From: Luteitalea sp. TBR-22
Lineage (GTDB): Bacteria; Acidobacteriota; Vicinamibacteria; Vicinamibacterales; Vicinamibacteraceae
NCBI RefSeq assembly: GCF_016865485.1
Contig: NZ_AP024452.1
Location: 1,200,501 to 1,264,500 of the forward strand
DNA length: 64,000 nucleotides
Reading direction: 5' to 3'
The position numbers and the translations under genes were made by a program. The stretch's first letter is position 1. Each line of letters begins with the position of its first letter. A model generated the notes under the pieces. That model ran no database searches and had not been told where the DNA came from. It saw only the letters and a program-made list of their open reading frames with translations. This document shows, piece by piece, positions 8,094 through 44,413 of this stretch.

Positions 8094-8096
8094 CGT

Positions 8097-9188
8097 CTAG
8101 CGCGAGCGCGTCAGGGTCACCGGCATCGTCATCGTCGTGCTGTCCACGGGCGCGACGAGCGGGTTCTCGAGGCGCACCTGCTTGGTGAACGTACCGACGA
8201 TGATCTCGCCGTTCTGGGCCCCGGAGAAGGTGAAGGTCGTCGTCACGATGGTCGTGACGCCGTTCTCGACGGCTGTGCCGCGGATCTGCTGCCGGAAGGC
8301 GAGGCTCGACGGCGACCCGGTGACGGCGACATCCGGCATGCCCCATTGGTAGGTCTGGCCCGTCTGTGGACCGTTCGGGCATGCGCTGTTGACGACGACG
8401 TTCTGCGCGTTGTCGACCCGTGCGAAGCTCCCGGACTGCACGGCGTTGTCGACGATGGCGACGTCCATGCGCAGCGTGCCCGTGTCGCGCTCGAGGCGTG
8501 CGCACGTGCGGCCCTGGGCGTCGGGGCCGAACACGAAGGTGTACTCGCCGGTGAACGGCCCGGCGAAGACGCTGCTGTTGCCGGTCGTCGTGGTGCCGCT
8601 GTCGTCCTTGCCGGCCACCTGGGTGGCGACGAGCGCCCCGGCGCCGACCGCCCCGCCGACGATCGCCAGGGTGGTCGCCGAGATGCCGCCGCTGCTGGCC
8701 GCCACCGTGGCGCCCGCCGCGGCCGTGCCGCCGGCCGCGGTGCCGGCGCCCGCCGCAGCGCTGCCGCCGCTTGCCGCCGCGACAGCGTTGGTCTGGACGA
8801 TGGTGGTGCTGGCGGTCTGGCCCTGGAACGCCGCCTTGACGTTGATCCTGACGACGCCCCTGGCCAGCGGCACCAGGCCGTCGGCCGTCGCCTGGCCGGC
8901 GGCGTTGGTGGTCACGGTGAGGGTCCTCGCGCCGGCCGAGAAGGCGGCCGTCTTGCCCGTGTCGATGGCGAACGTGACCAGCGCCCCGGCGACCGGCAGG
9001 TCGTTCCGATCGCGGACCTCGACGAGGGGGGCGACGGCGGTGCGCTGCCGGATGATGTTGACGCCGTCTTCCCCGGCCAGCACCACGATCTTCAGGCCGG
9101 CCGCCGTGGCCTTCGGGGCCTGCGCAGCCGCGGCGGGCCCCGGCAGCGCCATCGCCAGCACGAGCAGCATGCCGAGCGCACTCCTCAT
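8097..9188 (-). CDS. Secreted Ig-like (bacterial Ig/invasin-type) protein, function unknown
   Basis: 363-residue exported protein with a clear signal peptide (RSALGMLLVLAMALPGPAAAAQ). Residues about 30-125 look like a Big-1/Ig-fold domain (VEVRDRNDLPVAGALVTFAI, then TNAAGQATADGLVPLARGVVRINVKAAFQGQTASTT). Then comes an Ala/Gly/Ser-rich linker with a hydrophobic stretch (GISATTLAIVGGAVGAGALVATQVAG) that could be a membrane anchor, and a C-terminal all-beta domain of about 180 residues (FAGPFTGEYTFVFGPDAQGRTC) that I do not recognise. ATG 9188 is preferred over a longer frame to 9245 because GGAGG lies 5 nt upstream and the signal peptide starts there. It sits between the caspase gene (22 nt) and the TolC gene (3 nt), so it may be a cargo or surface component of the same system. 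Confidence 0.75.
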   Translation of the reverse strand: MRSALGMLLVLAMALPGPAAAAQAPKATAAGLKIVVLAGEDGVNIIRQRTAVAPLVEVRDRNDLPVAGALVTFAIDTGKTAAFSAGARTLTVTTNAAGQATADGLVPLARGVVRINVKAAFQGQTASTTIVQTNAVAAASGGSAAAGAGTAAGGTAAAGATVAASSGGISATTLAIVGGAVGAGALVATQVAGKDDSGTTTTGNSSVFAGPFTGEYTFVFGPDAQGRTCARLERDTGTLRMDVAIVDNAVQSGSFARVDNAQNVVVNSACPNGPQTGQTYQWGMPDVAVTGSPSSLAFRQQIRGTAVENGVTTIVTTTFTFSGAQNGEIIVGTFTKQVRLENPLVAPVDSTTMTMPVTLTRSR

Positions 9189-9210: not shown

Positions 9211-11394
9211 TCAGCGTCCGGTCCTCGCCGTGCCACAGCCGGCACGGGGAGCGATGTCGTCGATCTGCGCGATGTAGTCGCGCGCGTGAGACGCCTCGTC
9301 GAGCCGCGGGTTCACCGCAACCATGCGTACGTAGCTGGCGCGCGCCGCGGTGAGGCAATCGCAGCACTGACGCGCGTTGAACAGGTCGCGGTTGACGTTG
9401 CCGAGCAGGAACAGCGCGATCGGGTCGTCCGGCGTGTGGCGCAGGGCGCGTTGACAGTACTGACGTGCGCGCAGCGGGTTGCCCACCTTCTGCTCGGTGA
9501 GGCACAGGCCGAGGAAGCCTGCGCTGCGCAGGCTGTCGTAGGCCGCTTGCCGGTCGGCATGGGCGCGCCGGCCGACTCCCAGTCCGACGAAGTGGAAGGC
9601 GAGCCGCGCGCCGAGGCCGGACGAGAAGTTGGTCAGCTCGACGAACGCGCGGTACTCGTCGCGGGCGACCGCGTATCGCGCGCGCTGGCGCCCGGGATCG
9701 CTGTCGGCGGCCGCGAGGTGACGCAGCGCGTCGGCCTTCCACAGGTGCGCCTGCGCGTTGGACGGGCGCCACAGCAGGGCCAGGTCTGCGGACGCGACGG
9801 CGGGCTCCCACGCGCCCTTCTCCCAGAAGGCGCGCGCCAGCATCGCGTGCAGATCGTCACTGGAGTCGGCGTCCTTCAGCCGTCGTGCCTCGGTCAGCTG
9901 GCGGATGGCCTCGTCGGCGTCGCCCTGCTCGATCAGCACTCCCGCGTACTGCAGGCGCGGGTCGAGCGCCGACGGGTCGAGCGCAATCGAGGTGCGGAAG
10001 GCCCGGGCAGCGGCGTCGCCCTCGCGCAGCAAGTGTCGCGCCTGTCCCAGGTGGTATGCCGCGAGGGCGAACGAGGGGTCGGCCACCAGCGCGCGCTCGA
10101 ACAGGGCCGCCGCCCGGCGCAGGTCCGCCTCGCTCTGCTTGCGCTCCACCGGCGCGAGATTCAGGAGGCTGAGGGACGACCGCCGCGCGTACAGCAGGCG
10201 CTGGCCCTCCGCGTCGGCCTCGAGGCCGGGCGTGGAGACCTGCCTCGGGTAACGGATCCGGATGCTCACGGCCACCTCCTGGCCGGGCGCAATCATCACG
10301 TCCTTGCGGTCGGGCTCGTAGCCCGCCTTCACGCCGCGGAACTCGTGCAACCCGCTCGAGAGGCTCGGCACGACCAGCGGGGTCTCGCGCGACAGGCGGC
10401 CCACCAGCCTGCCGTCGATGTAGAGGTCCACGTCGTCGGTGTTGACCTCGATGATGGCGGTGCCGAGCAGCGACGGCGCTTGCGCGTCGGCGCCCGGCAG
10501 GCATCCGGTGCCGACCCCGAGCACCATGTCCGGCTCGAAGTCGCCGCGGGCCGTCGGCGTCTGCGTCAACTGGCGCTGGCGCGCGTACCGGCGCACCCCG
10601 GAGCGGACGAAGGTCACCAGTTCGTCGGCGGTGATGCGCCCGTCGCACGGATCGCTGTCGGCGTTGCCGCGGAAGGCCTGCACGAGGAAGTAGGTGAACA
10701 GGCCGAAGCCGGTCGACAGCCCCTGATCCTCGAAGCTCTGCTCGCGATCCGACGTGGCGGTGAGCGTGAGGAAGCTGCGCGGCAGCGCGCCGAACTGCGC
10801 CTCGAGTGCCGGTGTCGTCGTCTCGCCGGTGATCGCGCCGGAATGGCAGGCATCGGCGAGCAGCACCTTCCACTCCGCCTTGACCCGCGTGGCCAGCACC
10901 TCGCCGAGGCGCGCCATCGGGTACGCGGTCTCGGCCAGCCTGTCGGGCTGCACGTCCCAGGGCGCCAGGTAGCCCTTGCCGTCCTGCAGGAAGCCGTGGC
11001 CGGCGAAGTAGACCACCACGCGATCGCTGGGCTGGGCCACCGACGGCAGCCACTCCTCGATCTCGCGCGTGACGTTGGCCAGCGTCGCGTCGCGTCCCAC
11101 GAGCAGGTGGACGTTCTCGGCCGGGAACGCGCCGCCCGCGTGGTCGATGAGCACCCGGTACATCGCCTCGGCGTCGCTCTCCGGGAAGCGCAGTTGCTTC
11201 GACGCGTCGAGGTGCGCGTACGAGGCCACGCCGACGATCACCGCGTAGCCGCGCGGCACGTCGCGCCGCTCCGGGGGCCGCGACTTCGACAGCACGAGAT
11301 CCCGTTCGGTGGCCTGTGCCGCGGCGCGTGCCGGCAACCAGGCGGCCGCGACCGCGAGCGTGCCGACGAGGAGGAGGCGCAGGCTACGGCACAT
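9211..11394 (-). CDS. Caspase-like (peptidase C14) protein with PEGA and TPR domains
   Basis: 727-residue exported protein. Signal peptide 1-27 (LLLVGTLAVAAAWLPARAAAQ). Residues about 48-290 form a caspase/metacaspase fold: first strand GYAVIVGVASYAHLD, catalytic His133 in VVYFAGHGF and catalytic Cys183 in VLLADACHSGAI, both intact, so a working cysteine protease is predicted. A PEGA domain follows (about 310-382: GTAIIEVNTDDVDLYIDGRLVGRL), then a long TPR region (about 410-700) with repeats such as AAYHLGQARHLLREGDAAARAFRTSIALDP. A Cys-rich patch (ARQCCDCLTAA) lies near the C-terminus. The gene overlaps the upstream kinase gene by 11 bp. Caspase domains with protein-interaction repeats are known in bacterial signalling; a periplasmic one coupled to a Ser/Thr kinase and an exporter is unusual. 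The protease substrate is unknown. Confidence 0.85.
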   Translation of the reverse strand: MCRSLRLLLVGTLAVAAAWLPARAAAQATERDLVLSKSRPPERRDVPRGYAVIVGVASYAHLDASKQLRFPESDAEAMYRVLIDHAGGAFPAENVHLLVGRDATLANVTREIEEWLPSVAQPSDRVVVYFAGHGFLQDGKGYLAPWDVQPDRLAETAYPMARLGEVLATRVKAEWKVLLADACHSGAITGETTTPALEAQFGALPRSFLTLTATSDREQSFEDQGLSTGFGLFTYFLVQAFRGNADSDPCDGRITADELVTFVRSGVRRYARQRQLTQTPTARGDFEPDMVLGVGTGCLPGADAQAPSLLGTAIIEVNTDDVDLYIDGRLVGRLSRETPLVVPSLSSGLHEFRGVKAGYEPDRKDVMIAPGQEVAVSIRIRYPRQVSTPGLEADAEGQRLLYARRSSLSLLNLAPVERKQSEADLRRAAALFERALVADPSFALAAYHLGQARHLLREGDAAARAFRTSIALDPSALDPRLQYAGVLIEQGDADEAIRQLTEARRLKDADSSDDLHAMLARAFWEKGAWEPAVASADLALLWRPSNAQAHLWKADALRHLAAADSDPGRQRARYAVARDEYRAFVELTNFSSGLGARLAFHFVGLGVGRRAHADRQAAYDSLRSAGFLGLCLTEQKVGNPLRARQYCQRALRHTPDDPIALFLLGNVNRDLFNARQCCDCLTAARASYVRMVAVNPRLDEASHARDYIAQIDDIAPRAGCGTARTGR

Positions 11395-32418: not shown

Positions 32419-33423
32419 TCAGCCACCTCGAGCTTGTGCCAGCAGGTGCCTGTGCCAGTCGTCGTGGTCGCTCACCACCTGGACCGGGCCGAGCGCCAGC
32501 ATGCCGGTGCGGCCGATCGACCTGCGGAGGAAGTCGTACTCCCCCAGTGCGATCGCGAGGTCTTCGTCGGCCGGCAGGTGCAGGCCCGCGCCGCGGGCCA
32601 GGACGAGTGCCTTGGCCTGCACCGACAGCTCCAGCTCGAGCCGCAGCAGGCAGAACATGTCGGCGACGACCGGTCCGGGAAATCGTGCGCGCAGCTCCTG
32701 CAGGTACGACGCGATCCGCGTGACCCCGAAGAACTCCGACGTCACCAGCTGCAGCAACTCGATGTCCAGGTCGAGGCCGGCGCCGACCCACTCGCGGGTC
32801 ACGCGCTCGCTGCGCTCGAAGACCGTCGTCATCAGCAGCGGCAGCGCCACGAGGACGAGGGCCGTCTGCGCCAGCGGCGGCAACAGCAGGTGATTGAAGG
32901 CCACGTGCACCGCCATCGCCGCGCCGAGGCCGGGCAGCATCGCCAGCGGCTTGTGGCGCGGGTAGCGGTCCACGAGCGTGCGCGCCAGCATCGCGAAGAC
33001 CGCCGTCGTGCCGCCGTGCATGACCGCCGTCCCGAGGCCGCGCACCAGCCACAGGCCGAGCGGCGCGTCGGCGAGCGCCCGGAGGTAGACGACGTTCTCG
33101 ACGAGCGCGAAGCCGGCGCCGACCGCGAAGCCGAGCACCGCGGCGTCCACGAGGAACCCGACGCGTCGGGTCCACACCAGCCAGGCCACCAGCAGTGCCT
33201 TGCCGCATTCCTCGACGATGGGGCCGATCCACCCGACGATCAACGCGTCGGGCATCGTGGCCAGCGGAGTGCCTTCGATGAGCCATGCCGACACGAGAGC
33301 GGCCACGGCGCCGCCGGCCAGCGATCGCAGCACGTGCCGCAACGCGACCAGCTTGAAGCTGTCCATCAGCGACAGCCCCACCAGGAAGGCGAGCACGGGC
33401 AGGAGGGCGATGGCGATGTTCAC
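32419..33423 (-). CDS. PrsW-family intramembrane metalloprotease
   Basis: 334-residue multi-pass membrane protein of the PrsW/CAAX-like protease group. The expected motifs are all present: EECGK (71-75), FALVEN (105-110), HGG (136-138) and HVAFNH (173-178), which supply the glutamate and histidine zinc ligands within TM helices. A cytoplasmic tail of about 120 residues follows the last TM. In Bacillus, PrsW cleaves an anti-sigma factor, so it is notable that an ECF sigma/anti-sigma pair lies about 3 kb away on the same strand. The GTG start overlaps the TGA of the upstream peptidase gene (GTGA), so translation is coupled. A much longer open frame upstream is only a shadow of that gene. Confidence 0.88.
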   Translation of the reverse strand: MNIAIALLPVLAFLVGLSLMDSFKLVALRHVLRSLAGGAVAALVSAWLIEGTPLATMPDALIVGWIGPIVEECGKALLVAWLVWTRRVGFLVDAAVLGFAVGAGFALVENVVYLRALADAPLGLWLVRGLGTAVMHGGTTAVFAMLARTLVDRYPRHKPLAMLPGLGAAMAVHVAFNHLLLPPLAQTALVLVALPLLMTTVFERSERVTREWVGAGLDLDIELLQLVTSEFFGVTRIASYLQELRARFPGPVVADMFCLLRLELELSVQAKALVLARGAGLHLPADEDLAIALGEYDFLRRSIGRTGMLALGPVQVVSDHDDWHRHLLAQARGG

Positions 33424-36398
33424 CGGAGGATCTTGAGCGAGATCATCGCCTCGCGCCGCGGGCCGCGTCCCCGCTCGAAGGCCACCGCGCCGCCGAACGA
33501 CAGCGTCAGCTGCTGGGTGGCCGCCACGCCGAGCCGCACGTCCACCTGTCCGCCGACGTTGGTCGCGACGGTGCGCGTCGCGTCGTGATCGAGGTCGGTG
33601 CCCAGGCCGCCCACGAAGACGGCCGGCCGTGCCCACGTGGCGTGGAAGCCCGGCCAGCCGAGGCGCCGGAAGCGCCACGGCGGGAGGTTCCACTCGAGCG
33701 CCGACTTGAGGAAGTTGCGCCCGCCGATGCCGTTGAGCGCCGCGCCAGGGAAGCTGTGGAGCGTCCGGTAGCGCTTCTCCTCGAGGTGGTCCACCCAGTT
33801 GTTGCCGAACGCACCGAAGTAGAAGTTCGCGAACGGGTCGTCGCGGTCGTCGGGCGACAGGCCGGCCGCGTTACGGAGCCACAGCGTCGAGTGATTGCCG
33901 AAGGCGGCGACGTGGTGGTCGTAGGTGCCGGCCACACGCGTCACGAAGCGGCCGGCCACCTGTTGTCCCTGCGCGGCCACCGACCACTTCGACCCCTTCT
34001 CGTCGTCGACGTGCCCGAGCGAGTTGCGCACGTCGGACCACGACAGCTTCGCCTGCAGCGTGCCCAACCGGTCGACGTCGACGGCGACGTTCTGGTAGTC
34101 GGGCAGTCGATCGAGGTTGCCCGAGTAGGTGCCGCTCAGGTCCAGCTCGAGACGCTTCGGGCTGTCGTACACGAGCAGGTGCTTCCACCCGCCCTCGAGC
34201 ACGTAGCCCTTGCGGCTCGCCTTGGTCGGCCCGAAGAAGTCGTAGAAGTCGGCCCCGTTCAGCGTGAACCCGCCCCGCCAGTCACCGCGCTCGACCTCGG
34301 CCTGCACGTGGATGCGTTCGGCCTCCGGCAGTCCGGTGATGGCCGAATACGTGGCGACGACGCTGCCGCGGCTGAACTGGAGCGGATCGGAGAAGGCGAG
34401 GCGGACGCCGGGGGCACCGGTGCCCTTGTACGACTGGACGATCGGGTGCAGCGCGTCGAGCCGCATCCGCCGCAGCGGCGAGTAGGGCGAGGTGGACTGC
34501 GGCAGGGTCTCGAGCGGGATCTTCTGCGGCGAGCCGACCGCCCACTCGCGCACGATCGGGTGCTCCTCGGCAAGGCGCTCGCCGAGGAAGGTGATCGGCG
34601 CGATGTCCTCGATCGGCGCGATGCGCACCCGCGTCGGCACGAAGCCCTCGCCCGAGTACCGGAACGCGATCATCGTCCCGTCGTCGAGCGGCAGCGGCCG
34701 GAAGAAGCCGGTGTCGGTGTTGGTCACCGCCTCGACCTTCTTCGCCTCGAGGTCGTACCTGAAGATGTTGGACACCCCGGTGTAGTACGCGCTGCCGTAG
34801 ACGTAGCGCCCGTCGGGCGAGAACACGAAGTGGTTGGGCACGCTCTGCCCGAAGTCGAACCTGGCGACCGGCGCCGTGCCGCGCGCCCGCAGGGTCGCGG
34901 CGTCGAACACGCGCACGTCCTGCGTGCCGCTGATCTCGCCGAAGGAGGCGACGATGCGGGTCCCGTCGGGCGACACGTCGAGGTCGTACACCACCGTGCC
35001 GTACGGCCACGACACGACCTGCTCCCACTGACGATACGGCGCGGGCAGGCGCACGATCGTGCAGATGCCGTTGAGGTGACGGATGCCCCAGATGGAGCGG
35101 TCGGCGCGGTTGAAGGCGAGGTCGCCGATGCGCGCGTCCTTGATCAGCAGCTCGGTGCGCCGCGTCGCCGGGTCGAGGCGCATCAGGTCGCGCTGCTGGC
35201 CGTTGTCGGCGGTGTAGAAGAGCGTGCCGCTCTCCGGGTCGCGCGCCAGCGAGGCGACGGTGAACATGCTCGGGCCCTTGATGTCGACGAGACGCTCGAC
35301 GCGGCCGGAGTCGAGCGACAGCGCCGCGATGTGCGACACCGTGCCCGGGTAGCTCACGCCGGCGTAGAGCGTCCGCGTGCGCTCGTCGAGGTACGCACGC
35401 GACACGGCGCCGAGCGCGCGTGGCACGAGATCCTCGAAGGGCGTGAGCGGGTACCTGCCGATGGCGTCGAGGTTGGCCTGCTGGAAGGTCTTCTCGTCGC
35501 GCTGCCAGGTGGCCCAGGCCTGATCGAGCGTCTCGCCGAACACGCGGTGGAAGTCCCGGGCGTAGGAGGCCCGGCTGCCTTCGGGCCGCGACACCCACTG
35601 CACCAGCTTCTCCGGCGAGTGCCGACGCGCCACCCACGTCATGAAGCGCGTCCCGTAGAGGTACGAATTGGCCTCGTCCTGGAAGTCGATCTTGGTGCCC
35701 TCCGACACCAGCCCGAGGCGGTCGTAGATGGTCGCGCCGTCGCGCACCTTGGCGCGGAACACCATCTCGTCGTAGCCGCCCTGCGCCCGCCCGAGGCCGG
35801 CCGCCATCCACGTGTCGAAGAACACCGCGGCGCCCTCGAGGTACCAGCGGGGCGAGAAGTTGCGCGGCGCGGTGAGCCACGACCACAGGGCCGTCTCCGG
35901 GTGCTCGGCGACGGGCCGCACCTTGCCCGCGAACAGCGTCCGGAACAGCCGGTCGCGCCGCGAGGGCTGGTCCATCATCGTCACGTGGACCAGCTCGTGG
36001 TTCATGATCATGAACATCCGCTCGTTGGCATGCACGGTCTCGAAGGCATGGCTCAACGGCGCGAGCTGCACCATCAGCAGGTTGTGGGGCACGGCCGACG
36101 CGCCCGCATTGCCCGTGTCCTGCAGGTCGACCACGAGGACGACGGTGTCCTCGGCGGGGTCGAAGCCGAGGACCCGCTTCTGGAAGTCGAGCGAGGCGAG
36201 GAAGGTGCGTGCCGCGTACGGCACGATGAAGCGACCGCTCGGATCGAGGTAGACGAGGCGCAGGCCTGGCGTCTCGAAGACCGACAGCTGCGCCGCGGCA
36301 GGCCCGGTTGTCGCGACCAGGCAGACCAACAGCAGGAGGGCGCGCGGCAGCCAGCGCTGCACGCACGCCCTGATGTCGCGGACGCCGAGCGGGGTCAC
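33420..36398 (-). CDS. Exported MA-clan zinc peptidase with TolB-like propeller and C-terminal beta region
   Basis: 992 residues. Signal peptide (ALLLLVCLVATTGPAAAQ). The N-terminal third is a zinc-peptidase domain with HELVH (134-138) and a downstream Glu in WYLEGAAVFFD (Glu188), fitting gluzincin-type ligands. The middle (about 330-650) carries TolB/WD40-like propeller units, e.g. GTLFYTADNGQQRDLMRLDP, DLDVSPDGTRIVASFGE and FVFSPDGRYVYGSAYY. The C-terminal 300 residues are beta-rich with alternating aromatic strands and end SLKILR, consistent with an outer-membrane barrel or surface domain. GTG start; a TACGAT hexamer ends 6 nt upstream and no Shine-Dalgarno site is visible. Translationally coupled to PrsW, suggesting a shared envelope-proteolysis role. 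Substrates unknown. Confidence 0.82.
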   Translation of the reverse strand: MTPLGVRDIRACVQRWLPRALLLLVCLVATTGPAAAQLSVFETPGLRLVYLDPSGRFIVPYAARTFLASLDFQKRVLGFDPAEDTVVLVVDLQDTGNAGASAVPHNLLMVQLAPLSHAFETVHANERMFMIMNHELVHVTMMDQPSRRDRLFRTLFAGKVRPVAEHPETALWSWLTAPRNFSPRWYLEGAAVFFDTWMAAGLGRAQGGYDEMVFRAKVRDGATIYDRLGLVSEGTKIDFQDEANSYLYGTRFMTWVARRHSPEKLVQWVSRPEGSRASYARDFHRVFGETLDQAWATWQRDEKTFQQANLDAIGRYPLTPFEDLVPRALGAVSRAYLDERTRTLYAGVSYPGTVSHIAALSLDSGRVERLVDIKGPSMFTVASLARDPESGTLFYTADNGQQRDLMRLDPATRRTELLIKDARIGDLAFNRADRSIWGIRHLNGICTIVRLPAPYRQWEQVVSWPYGTVVYDLDVSPDGTRIVASFGEISGTQDVRVFDAATLRARGTAPVARFDFGQSVPNHFVFSPDGRYVYGSAYYTGVSNIFRYDLEAKKVEAVTNTDTGFFRPLPLDDGTMIAFRYSGEGFVPTRVRIAPIEDIAPITFLGERLAEEHPIVREWAVGSPQKIPLETLPQSTSPYSPLRRMRLDALHPIVQSYKGTGAPGVRLAFSDPLQFSRGSVVATYSAITGLPEAERIHVQAEVERGDWRGGFTLNGADFYDFFGPTKASRKGYVLEGGWKHLLVYDSPKRLELDLSGTYSGNLDRLPDYQNVAVDVDRLGTLQAKLSWSDVRNSLGHVDDEKGSKWSVAAQGQQVAGRFVTRVAGTYDHHVAAFGNHSTLWLRNAAGLSPDDRDDPFANFYFGAFGNNWVDHLEEKRYRTLHSFPGAALNGIGGRNFLKSALEWNLPPWRFRRLGWPGFHATWARPAVFVGGLGTDLDHDATRTVATNVGGQVDVRLGVAATQQLTLSFGGAVAFERGRGPRREAMISLKILR

Positions 36399-36429: not shown

Positions 36430-37494
36430 TCAGAACTCCTTCTGGCCCTCGCCCGACTTGCGGGCAGCGGTGTCGAAGGCCGAGAACAGCGTGTCGGCGT
36501 TCATGTTGAGGAAGTTGGTGTCGTTGACGACGTTGCGGAACGTGGCGTCGTTGAGCAGCCTGGCGAACTCGACGTCGCTGAAGAGCACCGCGAAGTCGGC
36601 ATCGCGCAGCAGCGCGGCGAGCTCGACGTCGGCAAAGGCCGTCTTCAGGGCGCTGTCGTACGCCAGGGCCTTGAAGTCCACCTCGGTGGCCAGCCTGGCG
36701 AAGGTCGCGTCGCTGGCCAGCTGCCGGAGCTCGACGTCGCTGATGGCGCGCCTCAGCTCCACGTCGGCGATGGCCATCCGCAGCGCCTCGGTGTCGATGG
36801 CGGCGTGCTTCAACTGGGCGTCCCTGGCCAGCGCCTGGACGTCGGCGTCCATGGCGAGGGCGCGCATGTCGGCGTCCATGGCGCGCGCCATCAGGGCCGG
36901 TTCACTGGCCAGCTGACGGAACTCGGCCCCGCGCAGCATCGCGGCGAGGTTGCCGCTGGTGACCGCCTTCTGGAAGGCCTTGCGCGCCTCCGGGCTGCGG
37001 CGCAGCGTGTCGAACGCCGGGCTCTGGAGGAACGACTGCAGCGCCTGATCGCCGAGCTTCACGTCGCTGGCCGTCAACTGCTGGCCCTGATAGCGCTTGG
37101 CCGCGCCGATGGTGCCCTCGGTCCCGCGCGGCGGGATGCTGCCACCCATGGCGACGTACAACCCCAGTCCGGCGGCCACGGTGGCGGCAATTCCCAGCAT
37201 CAGCTTCTTGCTCATCGTCTCTTCCGTCCTCATCTCCGGGGCGGCCAGCTGGCCACCCTCCGGGGTCAGGGCCCGAGCCGCGACGTGCTGCATCACGGTG
37301 GGCTTCAGGTCGGCCGGCGCGTCGACGGTCCCCATCGCGCGCAGGTCGCCAGCCAGTTGCTGCAGGTGCTCGAATCGGGCGCGCGCCTCGGGGGCTTCCG
37401 CGAGGGCGCGGTCCAGGGCGGTCCGGTCGACCAGGTCGCCGAACGCCGCCGCGTGCAACATCGCTTCCGTGCGTGGGTCCAGCATCTCGGTCAA
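36430..37494 (-). CDS. Membrane anti-sigma factor with a 9-residue tandem-repeat periplasmic domain
   Basis: 354 residues. Its position (4-bp overlap after an ECF sigma gene) and layout identify an anti-sigma factor: a cytoplasmic helical region (1-93, with EAMLHAAAFGDLVDRTALDRAL; no zinc-binding Cys), one TM helix (about 98-118, LMLGIAATVAAGLGLYVAM), and a periplasmic part. From about residue 158 to 338 the periplasmic part is built of about 19 units of 9 residues with the pattern D-x-x-[FLMV]-x-x-[LAI]-[AVL]-x; Asp occurs at 207, 216, 225, 234, then 244, 253, 262, 280, 289, 298, 307, 316, 325 and 334. One unit is 10 residues long and Glu replaces Asp at 271. I do not recognise this repeat. 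It may form a helical or solenoid sensor domain. The PrsW gene close by is a candidate site-1 protease. Confidence 0.78.
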   Translation of the reverse strand: MTEMLDPRTEAMLHAAAFGDLVDRTALDRALAEAPEARARFEHLQQLAGDLRAMGTVDAPADLKPTVMQHVAARALTPEGGQLAAPEMRTEETMSKKLMLGIAATVAAGLGLYVAMGGSIPPRGTEGTIGAAKRYQGQQLTASDVKLGDQALQSFLQSPAFDTLRRSPEARKAFQKAVTSGNLAAMLRGAEFRQLASEPALMARAMDADMRALAMDADVQALARDAQLKHAAIDTEALRMAIADVELRRAISDVELRQLASDATFARLATEVDFKALAYDSALKTAFADVELAALLRDADFAVLFSDVEFARLLNDATFRNVVNDTNFLNMNADTLFSAFDTAARKSGEGQKEF

Positions 37495-38036
37495 CCTGCC
37501 TGCGCGACCTTCAGGGCCGCGAGCTTGTCGGCGAGGCGTTGCCGCGCCGCGTACAGCCTGGACTTGACCGTCACCACCGGGATGCCCAGGGTGGCGGCCA
37601 CCTCGTCGTACGACAGCTCGCCGAAGTGCCGGAGCAGCACGACGTCGCGGTGCTCAGGCGTCAGCTCGGCGATCGCCTTCCGCAGGGCGTCCCGGCGCCG
37701 GGCCTCGTCGAGGGCCGACCCCGGATCGCGTGACACCGGCGGGACGGCGTCGAGGGCATCGGGCCGCGGCCGGCGTTTCTGCGTCAGGCACTCGTTCACG
37801 AGAATCCGGTAGATCCAGCTGAAGAACCGGTGCTGGCGGTCGTACGTCGCCAGCTTCTCGTAGGCGCGGATGAAGGCCGTCTGGGTCGCGTCCTGCGCAG
37901 CGTCCCGGTCGTGGAGCATCCGGTAGGCCACGCTGAAGAGCACGCGTTCGTAACGTCCGACCAACGCCTCGAAGGCGTTGACATCGCCGGCCGCCACCCG
38001 GGCGATGACGGCCTGTTCATCTCGATCCTGCAGCAA
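37491..38036 (-). CDS. ECF-type RNA polymerase sigma factor
   Basis: 181-residue sigma-70 family factor of the extracytoplasmic-function type. Region 2 is visible as AFEALVGRYERVLFSVAYRMLHDRDAAQDATQTAFIRAYEKLATYDRQHRFFSWIYRILVNE, and region 4 as LRKAIAELTPEHRDVVLLRHFGELSYDEVAATLGIPVVTVKSRLYAARQRLADKL. The linker holds KRRPRPDALDAVPPV. The start is uncertain: the listed start is TTG 38036, followed by CTG; no ATG fits. An ECF-like promoter on the same strand ends right at this start, which would make the message leaderless or place the start slightly downstream. Translationally coupled to the anti-sigma gene (4-bp overlap). Divergent from the STAS-TIG pair, which could be among its targets. 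Confidence 0.9.
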   Translation of the reverse strand: MLQDRDEQAVIARVAAGDVNAFEALVGRYERVLFSVAYRMLHDRDAAQDATQTAFIRAYEKLATYDRQHRFFSWIYRILVNECLTQKRRPRPDALDAVPPVSRDPGSALDEARRRDALRKAIAELTPEHRDVVLLRHFGELSYDEVAATLGIPVVTVKSRLYAARQRLADKLAALKVAQAG

Positions 38037-38062: not shown

Positions 38063-38094
38063 TGCGGGGGTGCGCGGCCTATTGATAGCACGGA

Positions 38095-38100
38095 TAAGAT
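38095..38100 (+). promoter_or_regulatory. -10-like element of the STAS-TIG unit
   Basis: TAAGAT ends 8 nt before ATG 38109; no Shine-Dalgarno site is visible. The -35 region shows no consensus box. Confidence 0.35.
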
Positions 38101-38108
38101 GCCGGTCG

Positions 38109-38504
38109 ATGGCAGCGCGCCGGCAGATCTGGCGACCCGAGGTCAGCACGCGCCTGGCCGGCAACGTCCTGGTGGTCAGCCTCTCCGGACGCCTCGGCGA
38201 GGCGGGCGCCCGCAGCGAGCCGCTCCTGGCGGCGCTGGCCGGCGCCGAGCCCCACCAGGCCGTGGTCGTCGACCTGTCGCGGCTCGACTACGTCTCCAGT
38301 CCGGGCGTGGCGCACCTGGCGGCTTTCGCCCGGACCCAGGCCGAGCGGGGTATCCCGTGCGTCTGGTGCGACCTCACGGAGGCGGTCCGTATTTCCCTTG
38401 ACCTTGCGGGCACGCTGCCGGAGTTCACGCTCGCGATGTCGCGAGAGGCGGCGATCGAGGCGGCGTCACGTTCTGCCTCCGGGAGCCCACCCTCTGTCCA
38501 ATGA
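38109..38504 (+). CDS. STAS-domain protein (anti-sigma antagonist type)
   Basis: 131 residues, one STAS domain: TRLAGNVLVVSLSGRLGEAGARSEPLLAALAG, then the core AVVVDLSRLDYVSSPGVAHLAAFARTQAERG, with SS-P-G at the phosphoacceptor loop (VSSPG, usually DSSGL in SpoIIAA-type antagonists, so Ser is available), and VWCDLTEAVRISLDLAGTLPEF. Such proteins bind anti-sigma kinases or act in partner-switching networks; no matching kinase gene is adjacent. An in-frame ATG at 38070 would add 13 unmatched residues. The stop overlaps the ATG of the TIG-repeat gene (ATGA), so a cytoplasmic switch protein is translationally coupled to a giant secreted protein. Divergent from the ECF sigma gene. Confidence 0.82.
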   Translation: MAARRQIWRPEVSTRLAGNVLVVSLSGRLGEAGARSEPLLAALAGAEPHQAVVVDLSRLDYVSSPGVAHLAAFARTQAERGIPCVWCDLTEAVRISLDLAGTLPEFTLAMSREAAIEAASRSASGSPPSVQ

Positions 38505-41500
38505 GTACCCGTGTCCGGCGTGCGCTGACCTGCCTCTCGACCGTCCTCCTGCTGGTCACGCTGACTGCCGCGACCGCTCGTGCCGGCACCGCCGTCCTGA
38601 AGGGGCGCGTGACCGACAAGGCCACCGGGCAGCCGATCGCCAACGCGCTGGTGACCCTCTACGAGGTCTTCCTCGGGGTCAACAACGTCTCGTGGGGCGC
38701 CACCTTCACCAACGCCAATGGGGAGTTCACCCATCTTGGTAGCGACACGAAGGTGTACCGGCTGCGTGCCTTCGACCGCGCCTACCGCCAGCAGGTGTAC
38801 GACGGCCTCGATTGCGCGTATTGGGGGGGCGGCCAGTGCGACACGGCGATGAACGCGGGCACGATCATCAGCCCGGGAGACGACGCCTCCTGCAATCCGG
38901 GCCCGTGCACGGTCACGGGCCTCGACTTCGCGCTCGAGAGGCTGCCCGCGCCGTCCATCAGCAGCATCACGCCGAACTCCGGGACCAAGGACGGCGGCAC
39001 GTCCGTGCTCATCACGGGCAGCAATTTCTACGGCCTGCCGGCGGTGGAGATTGCCGGTCGGGACTTCAACGACATGACCGTGACGGGCCCCGGCACGATC
39101 ACGGCAAAGACGCCTTCCAATCCGGTCGGGCCGGCCAACGTCAGCATCACCACCAGCAGCAAGGTCACGCTCGTCGGCGGCTTCACCTACACGGGGCCGC
39201 AACCGGCGCCGACGCTGACGGCCGTGTCGCCGGCCTCGGGCGTCACGACGGGCGGGACGCCCATCACGCTCACGGGCACCAACTTCAGTGGGTCTCCCAC
39301 CGTCACCGTCGGTGGTGTGGCGGCTACCGGCGTGACCGTCATCAACAGCACCACGATCACTGCAGTCACGCCCACCGGTACGGCCGGGGCCAGGGACGTG
39401 GTGGTCACGACGCTCGGCGGCGACGCCACGTTGGTCGGTGGCTTCACGTACGTCGCCCCACCGACCGTGAGTGGCCTCACGCCCTCGTCCGGGCCGACGG
39501 CCGGCGGGACCACGGTCACCATCACGGGGAGCAACTTCACTGCGGATACGCAGGTGCGGTTCAGCGGGGTCATCGCCCAGTCGGTCACGGTCTCGAGCGC
39601 GACGACCCTGACCGCGGTGACCCCCGGCGGCGCGGCGGGCGCTGCGGATGTGCGCGTGACGACACCGGGCGGCGACATCACCCTGCCGGGCGGCTTCACC
39701 TATCGGCCCCCACCCCCGACCTTGAGCGGCATCGCGCCGGCCAGCGGCCCCGTGGCGGGTGGCACCCCGGTGACGCTGACCGGGCAGTGGTCGGCCGACG
39801 TGACCCGGGTCACCATCGGCGGCGCAGACGCGACCTCGGTCGTGCAGGCCGGCGGGTCGCTGACGGCGGTGACGCCGCCCGGTGCCGCCGGCCCCCGGGA
39901 CGTGGTGGTCACGACGCTCGGCGGCGACGCCACGTTGGTCGGTGGCTTCACGTACGTCGCCCCACCGACCGTGAGTGGCCTCACGCCCTCGTCCGGGCCG
40001 ACGGCCGGCGGGACCACGGTCACCATCACCGGCACGGACTTCGTCGGCAGCACCACCGTCACGTTGGGGGGAGTCGCCGCGACCGCGGTTGCCGTCGTCA
40101 ACAGCACCACGCTCACCGCCGTCACGCCGCAGCGCTCGGCCGGCGCGCGCAGCGTCGTGGTCACGACGCCATACGGCTCGGCGACGTCGCCCACGCCCTT
40201 CACCTTCGCGGCGAGCCCCACGGTACTGTCGGTCAGCCCCAACAGCGGTCCGACGACCGGCCAGACGACCATCGCCATCACCGGCACCGGGTTCGAAGGC
40301 ACGCCCACCGTGACGCTGCGTGGCATCCCGGCGACCGACGTCACGCGGCTCGGTCCGACCCTGCTGACCGCGGTCACGCCGGCCGCGGCTGTCGGGCCCA
40401 GCGACGTGACCGTGACGGCCGCCGGGGGATCGGCCACGGCGGCCGGCGCCTTCACCTACATCGATCCGGCGAGCCTCACCGGACCGGCGCGCATCGACGT
40501 CGTCACGCCGGTGGCCGGGACCGTCAACGGCGGTACGGTGGTCACCGTGTGCGGCTATCGGCTCGACGCCGCCGTCACCATCCTGTTCGGCGCCCGCGCC
40601 GGTACCAACGTGCAGCCCTTGTTCGGCGATTGTGTGGCCGTGAGGACACCGGCCGGCGTCGCCCTCGGGCCTGTCGACGTGACCATCCTGACCGCCGCCG
40701 GCAAGGCGACGCGGGCGGCCGGCTTCTCGTACCTGCCGGTGCCGCAACTCGGGACGTTCGGAGCGATCACGCCCTCGCGGGGGAGCCAGGCCGGCGGCAC
40801 CACGGTGCTGATTGCAGGTGACGGGTTCGTCGGTGCACCGATTGTCCGGATCGGTGGCGCGCTTGCGACGTCGGTGACGGTGATCAACCCGGGATACCTC
40901 ACGGCCGTCACGCCCCCGGGGACGGGCGTTGGCGACCTGAGCGTGGAGGTGGGAGGTGCGACCGCCACGCGGGCCGGCGCGTTCACCTACCTGCCCGTGA
41001 CACCGGGCGCGCCGACGATCGCGAGCGTCGCCCCGGTGTCTGGCCCACTGTCAGGTGGGACCCTCGTGACGATCTGCGGCCAGAACCTGGACACCCAGAC
41101 CGCGGTGCTGTTCGGCGGCCGGCCCGGCCCCGTGCAGACGCGCGGCGAGGGGTGCCTCCGCGCGTACACGCCGTTCAACGACACGGCCGGTGCGGTCGAC
41201 ATCACGGTGCTGGCACCAGGCGGAAGCACGACGCGCTCGGCCGCCTTCTCGTACGTCACGCCCGGACCACTCCTCTCGTCCGGGCCGCTCGGGGATGGCA
41301 CCATGTCCGTCGTGGCCGGCTACGTGGCCGGGACGTCGCCGAACGCGATCGTGCCGCAGGATCTCAACGGCGTCGAGGACGTGTATCTCTCCGACAACGC
41401 CGGCGGCCCGCGGCGTCTCGTGAGCGCGAACCCGGCCGGCGCTGCCGGCAATGGACGCAGCACGTTGCCCCGCCTCAGTGCGACGGGCCGGTTCCTGACG

Positions 41501-44413
41501 TTCGTCTCGGCGGCCTCGGACCTCGTGCCCGGCGACACCAACTTCGCCGACGACGTGTTCCTGCTCGATCGCGACAGCGACGGCAACGGGACGTTCGACG
41601 AGCCCGGCACATGGTCGCTCCGCCGCGTCAGCGTCGACACCACTGGCCTCCAGGGCAACGGCAACAGCGGTCAGGCCGAGATCAGCCCCGACGGGTACTG
41701 GGTGGCGTTCGCATCGGCGGCGACCAATCTCGTGGCGGGCGACGTCAACGACATGCCGGACATCTTCCTGCACCACTGGCCCTCCGGCACGACGACGCGC
41801 GTCAGCCAGCGCAGCGACGGCGGCCCGGCCAACCTGGCCAGTCGCGTGCCCAAGATCAGCCGCGATGGCAAGCGCGTCGTGTTCGCCTCGCGCGCCAGCG
41901 ACCTCGTGCCCGGCGACGGCAACGGCCTGCTCGACGTCTTCCTCTGGGAGCAGGCCACAGGGGCAATCACACGCCTGTCCACGGCGCGCAACACGGGCGG
42001 ACTCGGCGATGCCTCGGGCGAGAGCGATCTGCCGACGATCAGCGCCGACGGCACGCGCGTCACCTTCTGGACGAAGGCCGCCGACATCGTCGGGACGCAG
42101 CCCGGGCTGCTGCCGGACTGGCAAGTGGTCGTCGTCGACCTCGCGCCGCCACTCTCGGGCGACGCCGCTGTCGCCACGACGACCGACCCGTTCGCCGCAG
42201 GGCGCGCGACGGTGAGCGACGTTGGCCTCGCGCCCGCCTGGCGCGCGTTCGCCGGCGCCGCGGTGACGGTGCCCGACAACGGGCGCCACTGGCTCGCGAC
42301 GAGCGTGTCGGGCGGGCTCGGCAACGGCCCGAGCACCAACGCCCAGATCAGCGGCGACGGGCGGACCGTGGTGTTCGAGTCCGCGGCCTCCGATCTGGTG
42401 CCCGACGACACCAACGGCGTCAGCGACGTGTTCCTCGTGCGCATCGACGAGTCCGGTGCACCCGGCGCGCCAGAGCGCGTCAGCCTCGACGCGGCAGGAC
42501 GACAGATCGAGAGCCCGAGCCGGTCGCCCGTCGTCTCCTTCGATGGCGGCGTCGTCGGGTTCGTCTCGGGGGCCGGGCTCACTCCCGAGAGCGTCGGACA
42601 GTCGGGCTCCTGGCTCTACGTGCGGCTGCCATCGACCTGGGTGTCATCGGTCACGCCGGCGCACGGCCAGGCAGGCACGAGCGTCACCCTGACACTGCGT
42701 GGCGGCGGCCTGGTGCCCGGCACGACCGTGCGCCTGGGGCAGGGCACGCCGGTGGTGGCGCAGGCAGTGAGCGGCAGCGCACTGACCGTGACGCTGCCGG
42801 TCAGCGGCTCCGGTGTCCTCGACGTCGTGGTCACCGATCCCGACGGATCGTCGGCGACGCTGCCCGGCGCGTTCACGGTGACGACGGCGGGCACGGAAGA
42901 CGCGGACGCCGACGGCCTGCCCGACACGTGGGAGCAGGCGTTCGGCCTGAGCGCGGTGTCGGCGTCGGGCCGCGACGGGGCGGGTGGCGACGCCGACGGC
43001 GACGGCCTGTCCAATGCTGCCGAATTCGCCCAGGGCACGCACCCGGCCGGCGTGTTCACACGCTACCTGGCCGAGGGCGCCACGAGCAGCTTCTTCTCGA
43101 CGCGGATCGCGCTGGCAAACCCGTCGTCGACGACTCCGGTGACGGCGCTGCTGCACTTCCAGAAGGGCGACGGCAGCAGCGTGCCGCTCACCGTGGTCGT
43201 GCCCGCCCGGGAGAGTCGGAAGATCGTGGTCGAGTCGGTGCCAGGCATGGCGGAGGCGGAGTTCGCCACGCTCGTCGAGAGCGACGGCCCCGTCGTCGTC
43301 GACCGCCTCCTGTCGTGGGACAGGGGCACCGGCTACGGATCGCATGCGGAGGCGTCGCTGCCGGCGACATCCACCACGTGGTACCTGGCCGAAGGGGCCA
43401 CGCACTCCGGCTTCGAGCTGTTCTACCTGCTCCAGAACCCGTCGGCGACCGAAGCGCAGGTGCGGGTGCGCTACCTGCGCCCGTCGGGACCGCCCCTCGA
43501 GCGCACGTATCCGGTGGCGCCTCGATCGCGCTTCAACATCTGGGTGGACCTCGAGACGTTCACGACGGGCGGGGTGACCGAGACGCTGGCCAGCACCGAC
43601 GTGTCGGCCGCCATCGAGGTGATCAACGGCGTGCCGATCATCGCCGAGCGCGCCATGTACCTGAACCGGAACGGCCAGACGTTCGCGGCTGGGCACGAAA
43701 GCGCCGGCATCCGGGCGCCCGCCACCGAGTGGTTCCTGGCCGAGGGCGCGACCCTGAACTACTTCGACGAGTTCCTGCTGCTGGCCAACCCGAATGCGGC
43801 CGACGCGCAGGCGACGATTACGTACCTGCTGGAGGACGGCTCGACGCGTCAGCGCGCGATGACGGTTCCGGCCAACACCAGGCAGAACGTGTGGGTCAAC
43901 GTCGAGCAGTTCGACGGCACGCCCGGCTACCCGATGGCCAACGTCGCGCACTCCACGCGCGTCACCGTGACCAACGGCGTGCCGATCGTCGTCGAGCGGG
44001 CGATGTGGTGGCCGCGGGAGTCGCCCAACTGGGTGGAAGCGCACAACTCGCCGGGCGCGGTCGTGACGGGGACGGCCTGGGCGGTGGCCGAGGGGCAGGC
44101 ACAGGCGTCACCCCGGGTGTCCACCTACCTGCTGGTGGCCAACACCGCGGCCACCGACGCCACCGTGACGCTCACGCTGATGTTCGAGGGCGCGGCGCCG
44201 GTCAGCAGGACGTTCACGGTGGCGCCGACCAGTCGTCGCACCTTCGATGTCGCGGCGGAGTTCCCGGAGGCGATGGGCAGGACCTTCGGCGCGCGCGTGG
44301 AGAGCGTCGGCGCCGGGGGCGAGGCGATCGTCGTCGAGTGCGCGATCTACAGCGACGCGCAGGGCGTGACGTGGGCGGCCGGGAGCAACCACCTGGCGAC
44401 GCGCCTGCGCTGA
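38501..44413 (+). CDS. Giant secreted TIG-repeat, PD40 and DUF5719-like surface protein
   Basis: 1970 residues. Signal peptide (LTCLSTVLLLVTLTAATARAG), then a carboxypeptidase-regulatory-like beta domain (VLKGRVTDKATGQPIANALVTLY). Nine TIG/IPT Ig-like units run from about residue 150 to 916 (each opens with P-x-SGPxxGGTxVTITGxxF). A TolB/PD40-type region lies at about 927-1367 (SPDGYWVAFASAATNLVAGDVNDMPDIFLH and similar). A tenth TIG unit at about 1378-1463 is followed by a calcium-binding thrombospondin-3-like stretch (DADADGLPDTWEQ, DADGDGLSNAAEF). Four C-terminal repeats (from about 1521) begin YLAEGAT/WFLAEGAT and contain a LANP core; they resemble DUF5719 units. No LPXTG, autotransporter barrel or PEP-CTERM was seen, so the anchoring is unknown. 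Adhesion or matrix binding is a reasonable inference. Translationally coupled to STAS. Confidence 0.85.
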   Translation: MSTRVRRALTCLSTVLLLVTLTAATARAGTAVLKGRVTDKATGQPIANALVTLYEVFLGVNNVSWGATFTNANGEFTHLGSDTKVYRLRAFDRAYRQQVYDGLDCAYWGGGQCDTAMNAGTIISPGDDASCNPGPCTVTGLDFALERLPAPSISSITPNSGTKDGGTSVLITGSNFYGLPAVEIAGRDFNDMTVTGPGTITAKTPSNPVGPANVSITTSSKVTLVGGFTYTGPQPAPTLTAVSPASGVTTGGTPITLTGTNFSGSPTVTVGGVAATGVTVINSTTITAVTPTGTAGARDVVVTTLGGDATLVGGFTYVAPPTVSGLTPSSGPTAGGTTVTITGSNFTADTQVRFSGVIAQSVTVSSATTLTAVTPGGAAGAADVRVTTPGGDITLPGGFTYRPPPPTLSGIAPASGPVAGGTPVTLTGQWSADVTRVTIGGADATSVVQAGGSLTAVTPPGAAGPRDVVVTTLGGDATLVGGFTYVAPPTVSGLTPSSGPTAGGTTVTITGTDFVGSTTVTLGGVAATAVAVVNSTTLTAVTPQRSAGARSVVVTTPYGSATSPTPFTFAASPTVLSVSPNSGPTTGQTTIAITGTGFEGTPTVTLRGIPATDVTRLGPTLLTAVTPAAAVGPSDVTVTAAGGSATAAGAFTYIDPASLTGPARIDVVTPVAGTVNGGTVVTVCGYRLDAAVTILFGARAGTNVQPLFGDCVAVRTPAGVALGPVDVTILTAAGKATRAAGFSYLPVPQLGTFGAITPSRGSQAGGTTVLIAGDGFVGAPIVRIGGALATSVTVINPGYLTAVTPPGTGVGDLSVEVGGATATRAGAFTYLPVTPGAPTIASVAPVSGPLSGGTLVTICGQNLDTQTAVLFGGRPGPVQTRGEGCLRAYTPFNDTAGAVDITVLAPGGSTTRSAAFSYVTPGPLLSSGPLGDGTMSVVAGYVAGTSPNAIVPQDLNGVEDVYLSDNAGGPRRLVSANPAGAAGNGRSTLPRLSATGRFLTFVSAASDLVPGDTNFADDVFLLDRDSDGNGTFDEPGTWSLRRVSVDTTGLQGNGNSGQAEISPDGYWVAFASAATNLVAGDVNDMPDIFLHHWPSGTTTRVSQRSDGGPANLASRVPKISRDGKRVVFASRASDLVPGDGNGLLDVFLWEQATGAITRLSTARNTGGLGDASGESDLPTISADGTRVTFWTKAADIVGTQPGLLPDWQVVVVDLAPPLSGDAAVATTTDPFAAGRATVSDVGLAPAWRAFAGAAVTVPDNGRHWLATSVSGGLGNGPSTNAQISGDGRTVVFESAASDLVPDDTNGVSDVFLVRIDESGAPGAPERVSLDAAGRQIESPSRSPVVSFDGGVVGFVSGAGLTPESVGQSGSWLYVRLPSTWVSSVTPAHGQAGTSVTLTLRGGGLVPGTTVRLGQGTPVVAQAVSGSALTVTLPVSGSGVLDVVVTDPDGSSATLPGAFTVTTAGTEDADADGLPDTWEQAFGLSAVSASGRDGAGGDADGDGLSNAAEFAQGTHPAGVFTRYLAEGATSSFFSTRIALANPSSTTPVTALLHFQKGDGSSVPLTVVVPARESRKIVVESVPGMAEAEFATLVESDGPVVVDRLLSWDRGTGYGSHAEASLPATSTTWYLAEGATHSGFELFYLLQNPSATEAQVRVRYLRPSGPPLERTYPVAPRSRFNIWVDLETFTTGGVTETLASTDVSAAIEVINGVPIIAERAMYLNRNGQTFAAGHESAGIRAPATEWFLAEGATLNYFDEFLLLANPNAADAQATITYLLEDGSTRQRAMTVPANTRQNVWVNVEQFDGTPGYPMANVAHSTRVTVTNGVPIVVERAMWWPRESPNWVEAHNSPGAVVTGTAWAVAEGQAQASPRVSTYLLVANTAATDATVTLTLMFEGAAPVSRTFTVAPTSRRTFDVAAEFPEAMGRTFGARVESVGAGGEAIVVECAIYSDAQGVTWAAGSNHLATRLR
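39393..39525 (+). repeat. 133-bp exact internal direct repeat, copy 1
   Basis: Base-for-base identical to 39897-40029, at an offset of 504 bp (168 codons, two TIG units), inside the TIG-repeat gene. Neighbouring TIG units are far less alike, so this reflects recent duplication or gene conversion. Confidence 0.92.
39897..40029 (+). repeat. 133-bp exact internal direct repeat, copy 2
   Basis: Second copy of the repeat at 39393-39525. Recombination between the copies would delete or add exactly two TIG units in frame. Confidence 0.92.

Follow-up and report, generated by a model that had tools for sequence, protein, structure and literature searches.

The question raised by this locus is whether a membrane protein in which an anti-sigma domain precedes a long run of nine-residue repeats represents a new stress-sensing fold, as the original prediction proposed. 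In the stretch of 64,000 nucleotides analysed here (the window), the open reading frame lies at 36430-37494 on the minus strand, starts with TTG, encodes 354 residues and overlaps by 4 nucleotides the stop of an ECF sigma factor gene. Its parts and neighbours are the following.

37491..38036 (-): ECF sigma factor gene (Pfam Sigma70_r4_2, 1.1e-16; Sigma70_r2, 1.1e-15)
37273..37485 (-): anti-sigma domain, residues 4-74, no Cys (hhalign, profile match, AlphaFold2)
37213..37235 (-): internal ATG (M94) ahead of the transmembrane (TM) helix, with a weak Shine-Dalgarno-like stretch (score 4, AGGA, spacing 11)
37150..37209 (-): TM helix, residues 96-115 (sequence and AlphaFold2 helix 96-115)
37048..37125 (-): juxtamembrane family motif, residues 124-149, GTEGTIGAAKRYQGQQLTASDVKLGD (invariant residues in a 14-row alignment)
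36469..36927 (-): nonad array, residues 190-342, the pattern being weaker from about 150 (periodicity, AlphaFold2)
33420..36398 (-): partner protein of 992 residues, with an HExxH (putative peptidase) domain, a beta-propeller and a C-terminal probable outer-membrane barrel
32419..33438 (-): PrsW-type intramembrane protease (profile match 2.6e-113; PF13367, 4.5e-18; EECGK motif); start codon not fixed, the open frame extending to 33693
38070..38504 (+): divergent STAS-domain gene (PF13466, 7.9e-11; PF01740, 1.6e-8)

The reading of the N-terminal part as an anti-sigma domain followed by a TM helix held up. Hhalign aligns residues 4-74, with probability 89.4 and E 2e-6, to a profile built from ten stand-alone anti-sigma factors of operons of this type, and they match the anti-sigma factors of the operons described below at 4e-9; NCBIfam NF052375 'anti-sigma factor' gives 1.3e-6, below its cut-off, and is also matched by 9 of the 10 stand-alone factors. 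The AlphaFold2 pLDDT is 84-95 over residues 1-50, and the sigma factor gene overlaps. The H-x3-C-x2-C zinc motif (ZAS) was not found in the window protein, which has no Cys, and the domain therefore appears, from these matches, to be an ECF anti-sigma domain of a kind that lacks zinc. The stand-alone factors are similar in this respect, with one Cys before the TM helix in 2 of 19 and none in 17, although two of them give weak zf-HC2 matches, below cut-off. The sigma factor has the SigW family as its top NCBIfam match (2.4e-35, under that model's cut-off), and matches a profile of the operon sigma factors at 2e-67, the window's own sigma being included in that profile.

The nine-residue repeat and its predicted fold

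The nine-residue repeat of the window protein is real. Between residues 146 and 354, the fraction of identical residues nine positions apart is 0.28, against an average of 0.094 (sd 0.020) in shuffles, and the autocorrelation of V, I, L, M and F at lag 9 is 0.49 (shuffle mean about 0); neither value was matched by any of 2000 shuffles at lags 2 to 40, in agreement with the near-perfect period claimed past the TM helix. In the DNA of the array, 27-bp periods match at 67-82%, so that the units have diverged. Asp had been proposed for the first position of the nonad, and the positions listed for it are correct, but residue 271 is Glu and the register slips by one residue between 234 and 244. Hydrophobic residues do occupy positions 4, 7 and 8, the residue at 7 often being Ala. 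The extent, put at some 19 units, calls for a correction: the sequence is nonad-like already just past the juxtamembrane motif, and AlphaFold2 gives 21 helices in residues 150-346, not all of them seven residues long.

One nonad pattern is common to 39 proteins of several phyla. In their units, position 1 is N, S or D in 80% of cases, a share not built in by the phasing, whereas position 4 holds a hydrophobic residue in 93% and position 8 in 91%, values that are partly built in since the phase was set by hydrophobicity. The consensus has F, L, V or M at position 4, A or L at position 7, which is the small one, and L or M at position 8 (Leu 57%, Met 20%); Pro stands at position 2 in 24% of units. 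Given the cap residues at position 1 and this Pro, a continuous alpha-helix, in which 18 residues make 5 turns, was thought unlikely. An RTX beta-roll was also set aside, no GGxGxD being seen by eye and the NCBIfam calcium-repeat match of one relative (L057, E 1e-6) lying far under the cut-off.

AlphaFold2 models of the window protein (14 alignment rows) and of a clean homologue, L128 (17 rows), fold most nonads into a seven-residue helix and a two-residue linker. The array is thus predicted to be helical rather than disordered, at low confidence for the window protein (array pLDDT 50-70, pTM 0.33) and at higher values for L128 (74-86, pTM 0.55). Foldseek found nothing with the window model (best E 4.3). 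For the L128 array, the nearest PDB folds are mainly designed helical repeat fibres (8g8i, 8eoz; Foldseek E 0.018, TM-score 0.26), which are artificial, and the VIA Z of 6.7 lies under the level that shows kinship.

Sequence searches agreed with the view that the array belongs to no familiar repeat. The window protein has no Pfam match over threshold, its array has no sequence match in Pfam or PDB, and the best PDB hit of the whole protein, to CopC, has E 0.035 and runs across the N-terminal domain and TM helix. A period of 9 with no Pfam match over cut-off also bears out the exclusion of heptad coiled coils, TPR, LRR and pentapeptide repeats. For TPR, the window protein reaches only E 0.15 against the end-of-group model NF047558; two relatives, L055 and L051, exceed the cut-off of that model (55.9 and 37.6 against 32 bits) with no stretch passing singly, which counts against the exclusion. 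Array matches to DUF826, RPN13_C, Med31, TPR_END_plus and others were taken as effects of repetition, many unrelated families being matched.

Alternatively, the nonads may form a homotrimeric alpha/beta coiled coil, that is, a fibrous stalk anchored in the membrane. According to Hartmann (2016, PMC4786415), natural nonads with hydrophobic residues at a, beta1 and beta2 form trimeric fibres of this kind, and Tcar0761 and the stalks of trimeric autotransporters share with REP, as the family is called below, the nine-residue period and three hydrophobic positions in the register of positions 4, 7 and 8. A weak phmmer match of L081 to the construct 5apz (E 0.097) and a period of 7 in some relatives point in the same direction. 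However, in that fold beta2 tends to be small (Ala or Val), so that the order of sizes is reversed in REP, with Leu or Met at position 8 and the small residue at 7, and the AlphaFold2 monomer model gives seven-residue helices. We regard this explanation as very unlikely.

A conserved core with an exchangeable tail

The window protein is a member of an uncharacterised family without a Pfam entry, here called REP, which is defined by a TM helix, the motif GTI-x2-A-x-R-Y-x3-Q-x4-DV and a tandem-repeat tail, all of them present in the window protein. In its motif, T128, I129, A132, R134, Q139, D144 and V145 are invariant among the 14 aligned rows. The 18 REP cores scanned gave no consistent Pfam match, a Wzz match in one of them (E 4e-4) being taken as TM similarity, and a literature search over titles and abstract openings found no paper on the REP operon or the repeat. 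Searched with a DNA pattern for the motif, genome contigs gave 109 matching stretches; of the 80 loci examined among them, 61 passed a TM filter and one, L117, was dropped by eye, leaving 60 REP loci. With the window protein and 23 others these make a set of 84 proteins, among which L008, L011 and L072 are array fragments at contig ends without a core.

Counts in genome draws make the family wide but sparse. The core profile was matched in 10 of 162 genomes of the window's order, 14 of 193 of its class (with one chance match each in order and class, L021 and L030) and 19 of 396 drawn from its phylum. Outside it, REP was found in 2 of 274 Gammaproteobacteria, one being the genome on which the draw was centred, in 5 of 289 Alphaproteobacteria, one doubtful and one the central genome, and in 8 of 247 genomes of the Bacteroidota, the phylum of a Spirosoma locus. 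None was found in 246 genomes of the Actinomycetota, the phylum of a Microbacterium locus, in a draw that had no positive control. By record titles, the family is present in Alpha-, Beta- and Gammaproteobacteria, Acidobacteria, Eisenbacteria, Latescibacterota and Aminicenantes, to which the Bacteroidota draw is added. A match in genome G976 (E 8e-4) is doubtful, and five candidates were rejected or set aside: L003 (E 0.57), L010 (by eye an NRPS frame), L002 in the window's own genome (E 0.075, by eye a sensor-kinase-like frame), and the pair of chance matches already mentioned. One record, CALQBJ020000050.1 (L124), is titled Bifidobacterium breve, and it has the REP protein of G103, a genome of the window's order; the label is probably wrong.

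The same family looks quite different when one compares tails. Within the window's order, relatives share the TM helix and motif, and the nonads of their arrays are quite different. Of the 84 proteins, 38 have 9 as their dominant period; it is 18 in 4, 10 in 17, 8 in 6, 4 in 5, 5 in 4, 7 in 3, 11 in 3, and 3, 12 and 20 in one each, one tail being too short. A tandem tail thus stands at the same place in nearly all of them (the periodicity is weak in L045 and L145, with z 1.6), and its period is 9 or 18 in 42 and another in 41, which goes against the nonad as an essential stress-sensing fold. Alphaproteobacterial titles account for 16 of the 17 loci with period 10, if Marinicaulis and Croceicoccus belong to that class, as we take them to, the remaining one (L131) being titled only 'Proteobacteria'. 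Two Eisenbacteria loci and a Latescibacterota locus have an 11-residue PDADGG unit between nonad stretches, and the tails of Betaproteobacteria consist of short units rich in Gly, Ala, Ser, Asn and Gln. Array length ranges from 81 to 793 residues, with up to about 88 units, so that the array is no strict ruler.

Two loci deserve separate mention. L052 has two REP genes (7488-8660 and 9886-10776) on either side of one anti-sigma gene, the first with an 18-residue unit resembling VDSGKLITGEAGAKYMVP, the second with a less regular tail. The REP gene of L080 contains an N run within the array and a repeated core, which suggests an assembly error across the tandem repeat; arrays assembled from short reads need care.

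This diversity bears on the possibility that the array is a chain of helical hands, like those of STI1 and HOP-DP domains, binding the hydrophobic segments of misfolded envelope proteins, so that client load would be the stress signal. Of 25 array proteins picked from the 84 and scanned, 10 match PF17830 (STI1-HOP_DP) at E<=1e-3, and L055, with seven stretches and E down to 9.2e-21, and L128 pass the Pfam cut-off. DP domains are described (PMC8010706) as amphipathic helices making a flexible hydrophobic groove, and the likeness of the arrays to them and to ubiquilin STI1 lies in short amphipathic helices capped by Asp/Asn-Pro, with helix-breaking Pro and a comparable hydrophobic spacing. In that description, though, an STI1/DP domain is one compact hand of about five helices, whereas REP has far more units and is, by its likely topology, periplasmic. 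The window protein has no PF17830 match, 27 families, other unrelated ones included, match these repetitive sequences, and among the 41 tails of other period some have units rich in Gly, Ser, Asn and Gln without hydrophobic faces. STI1/DP domains are cytosolic. On balance, we consider client binding unlikely.

Does selection act on the array at all? It changes faster than the core in 4 of 5 pairs of congeners, the exception being L149/L079 (array 96% and core 94% identical). In L038/L039, whose arrays do not differ in length, identity is 98% over the core and 82% over the array, and changes are rare at nonad position 7 (1 of 48) and frequent at position 9 (27 of 48). In L149/L091, position 8 is unchanged (0 of 36) and position 7 changed in 10 of 36, and in L132/L041 changes are fewest at positions 4 (9 of 55) and 7 (8 of 55), the arrays of these two pairs differing in length, with 46 and 333 gap columns. 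The spared position therefore differs between pairs: 7, then 8, then 4 and 7. Because change is uneven along the nonad, these comparisons suggest that the fold matters where the nonad is used. They also weigh against neutral slippage, by which the tail would be a tolerated tandem expansion without function. Its unit and length do change quickly, as such an origin would have it, but the same nonad pattern recurs in 39 proteins of several phyla and a tandem tail is there in nearly all 84, and we hold this origin to be highly improbable.

Gene neighbourhood and fusion to the anti-sigma domain

REP genes lie in a conserved operon, whose usual order is SpoIIE phosphatase, HATPase, STAS, ECF sigma, anti-sigma, REP, HExxH/propeller/barrel protein and PrsW. 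With profiles built from these same loci, the HExxH gene was found directly downstream of REP in 36 of 39 loci (intact REP end, at least 600 bp downstream) and PrsW, also on the downstream side, in 13 of the 18 loci whose sequence reaches far enough. Upstream, the sigma factor is present in 34 of 51 loci, the anti-sigma domain in 31 of 52, STAS in 31 of 46, HATPase in 27 of 42 and SpoIIE in 20 of 32. Seven further loci have the HExxH gene in all seven, PrsW in six (one at only E 1.1e-5), and sigma, anti-sigma, STAS and HATPase in six each. In the window, the sigma factor, the fusion, the HExxH protein and PrsW are in place, and of the SpoIIE, HATPase and STAS genes only a STAS gene, divergent, was found next to them. 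Scanning the window operon for sigma-70 promoters yielded nothing, ECF promoters being outside the coverage of the scan.

Co-occurrence extends beyond adjacency. Among 80 relatives of the window genome, the HExxH gene (E<=1e-20) is present in 7, all of them with REP, and one more has REP alone, so that the two genes are both present or both absent in 79 of 80 (Fisher 2.5e-9, uncorrected for kinship). Six close relatives in the window's genus and family (G001-G006) gave neither gene; the operon is therefore patchy, and may be subject to horizontal transfer or to frequent loss. REP stands without an adjoining HExxH gene in L079, L124 and L149. In one genus (G103 and G057; L065/L124 and L066/L020), REP and a sigma factor were seen with no HExxH gene nearby, and the array of L020 is short and irregular, as if the system were being lost.

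The catalytic motifs of both putative proteases are conserved. All 28 copies of the HExxH protein over 700 residues have HExxH and, at one fixed spacing of about 50 residues, EGxA; the window copy has HELVH and LEGAAVFFDTW. No Pfam peptidase family matches the HExxH protein. The propeller of the window copy is barely over the cut-off of the LpqB-type model Gmad1 (20.9 against 20.5 bits) and has a PDB profile match to a TolB propeller (2e-5), and a homologue shows a weak Omp85_2 match (E 0.036), from which, together with the C-terminal residues, a location in the outer membrane is probable. EExxK is found in 20 of 20 PrsW proteins; that of the window has it as well, and is the sole PF13367 match in its genome.

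How general is the fusion to the anti-sigma domain? The array had been taken for the periplasmic half of an anti-sigma factor, which fits 15 of the 60 loci, where the anti-sigma domain runs in frame into REP, but not the 19 in which a separate anti-sigma gene, whose product has its own TM helix and a different outer domain, precedes REP; the remaining loci either show no anti-sigma gene in the vicinity or are cut off by the end of the contig. Fusions are found in the window and its relatives, in Betaproteobacteria and in one Aminicenantes locus (L139 but not L115). REP is hence not in general the sensor half of an anti-sigma factor, and the window protein is one member of a widespread, sparse and uncharacterised repeat family encoded in a conserved signalling operon.

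The fused genes have kept a second start. A Shine-Dalgarno match of four or more bases precedes REP's own ATG in 18 of 23 fused frames, and precedes 46 of the 367 other ATGs in them; the p-value of this contrast, 1e-11, is too good, the sequences being related. Two of 25 frames, L006 and L020, were dropped as having no ATG just before the TM helix (18 of 25 if kept as misses), and in L042 the internal Met was chosen anew. In the window this site, M94, corresponds to the start of the stand-alone REP proteins and is weak. Since the start codon is mostly kept, translation of a fused gene may give two products, the anti-sigma fusion and REP by itself.

Loci without a sigma factor raise another possibility. 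The sigma factor is absent in 17 of 51 loci, all with alphaproteobacterial (15) or 'Proteobacteria' (2) titles, and the anti-sigma domain in 21 of 52, so that not every REP is linked to a sigma factor. REP, the HExxH gene and PrsW nevertheless stay together in the alphaproteobacteria concerned, as they would if REP were a product rather than a sensor, a repetitive fibre or matrix protein released by the HExxH protein and PrsW under sigma control. Tails of low complexity, faster than the core in all congener pairs save L149/L079, would suit a fibre, whereas a fusion to an anti-sigma domain (Betaproteobacteria, the window's class and one Aminicenantes locus) would make little sense, though the internal start could still yield one. 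We judge this explanation distinctly unlikely.

Some neighbours fall outside the usual order. A frame of 1970 residues at 38501-44413 of the window adjoins the STAS gene; inspected by eye, it contains numerous IPT/TIG-like repeats along with a propeller-like stretch, and it is perhaps a large surface or secreted protein and a candidate target of the system. In L055 (7406-12330) and L060 (2649-7621), an ABC transporter and a STAS-like protein lie beside the REP gene, the transporter genes of L055 matching Pfam ABC_tran, BPD_transp_2 and ABC_sub_bind, with similar genes in L060.

Possible role of the array

The nearest known arrangement is that of Bacillus subtilis, in which RsiW, a zinc anti-sigma factor, is cleaved in its TM segment first by PrsW and then by RasP, and SigW is set free (PMC5358783). 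The operon described here likewise has an ECF sigma factor with its best match in the SigW family (below cut-off), a single-pass anti-sigma factor and PrsW, but the anti-sigma domain of the window protein is without Cys and is tied to REP. To our knowledge, RsiW has no repeat array and SigW no operon encoding an HExxH protein of outer-membrane type. SpoIIE phosphatase, RsbW-type HATPase and STAS genes, which lie upstream in REP loci, recall the partner-switching regulators; here the sigma factor next to them is of the ECF type and has, in addition, an anti-sigma factor in the membrane.

Our tentative first choice, to which we give somewhat under an even chance, is that REP is a periplasmic rod, anchored in the inner membrane, that links the HExxH protein to proteolysis by PrsW of the anti-sigma factor in an envelope-stress operon. 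The cytoplasmic N-terminal domain would hold the ECF sigma factor, and the single TM helix would anchor REP, or the fusion, in the inner membrane. Past the motif, a predicted superhelix of two-turn helices, one for each nine residues (N-cap N, S or D at position 1, F, L or V at 4, A or L at 7, L or M at 8), would project into the periplasm. Its task would most likely be mechanical, that of a rod or tether bringing a cleavage site near the membrane to the HExxH/propeller/barrel protein in the outer membrane, and between the two membranes REP would keep the substrate in place or bring it into position. A disturbance of the envelope would lead to cleavage of REP and the anti-sigma factor beside the membrane, at the GT[IMV] region, then to the action of PrsW and to release of the sigma factor. 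In this scheme the motif, the period of the array, the operon, the co-occurrence and the conserved HExxH and EExxK are observations and the helical fold is a prediction, whereas the tethering, the site and activity of the HExxH protein, the sequence of cuts and the nature of the stress signal are inferences.

GT[IMV] lies 12-18 residues past the TM helix in at least 16 of the 19 stand-alone anti-sigma factors (the TM helix of L094 is misassigned, L080 has GTL and L131 GA), and among ten of them aligned the G is invariant and the T nearly so. In 60 REPs, GTI lies 5-16 residues (median 11) past the TM helix. Because these distances are similar, the site could be a common recognition site of anti-sigma factors and REP. 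A mechanical role, that of a physical spacer, also accounts better than a specific binding surface for a repeat unit that is exchanged while its flanks are conserved.

The tether is further favoured by the linkage of the HExxH gene and PrsW, their catalytic motifs, the nonad pattern and its helical model, the uneven substitutions, and the lack of REP in the Actinomycetota draw, which had no positive control. Against it count the variable length of the array, the loci without a sigma factor or an anti-sigma domain, the three REP genes without an adjoining HExxH gene, the change of the spared nonad position from pair to pair, the low confidence of the window model, the want of a Pfam peptidase match and the weakness of the Omp85_2 match behind the outer-membrane location.

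ECF signalling itself is well known; here, an operon recurs across several diderm phyla, with a rod that has no Pfam entry. Its set of parts comprises an HExxH protein, probably of the outer membrane, a repeat rod, PrsW and an anti-sigma factor, and signalling from the outer membrane to an anti-sigma factor of the inner membrane is, as far as we know, established in few systems. Taken further, the tether would make this operon an envelope sensor of a new kind, in which an exchangeable repeat rod couples an outer-membrane metallopeptidase to PrsW and an ECF anti-sigma factor, and in which what proteolysis reads out is no ligand but the periplasm's physical state; we consider this larger claim doubtful. 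The unit having been swapped many times with the flanks kept, whether length, stiffness or sequence matters is a directly testable question. If the prediction is true, the commonest form of the rod would be a natural solenoid with one two-turn helix for each nine residues, an unusually short natural alpha-repeat that would be useful to protein designers.
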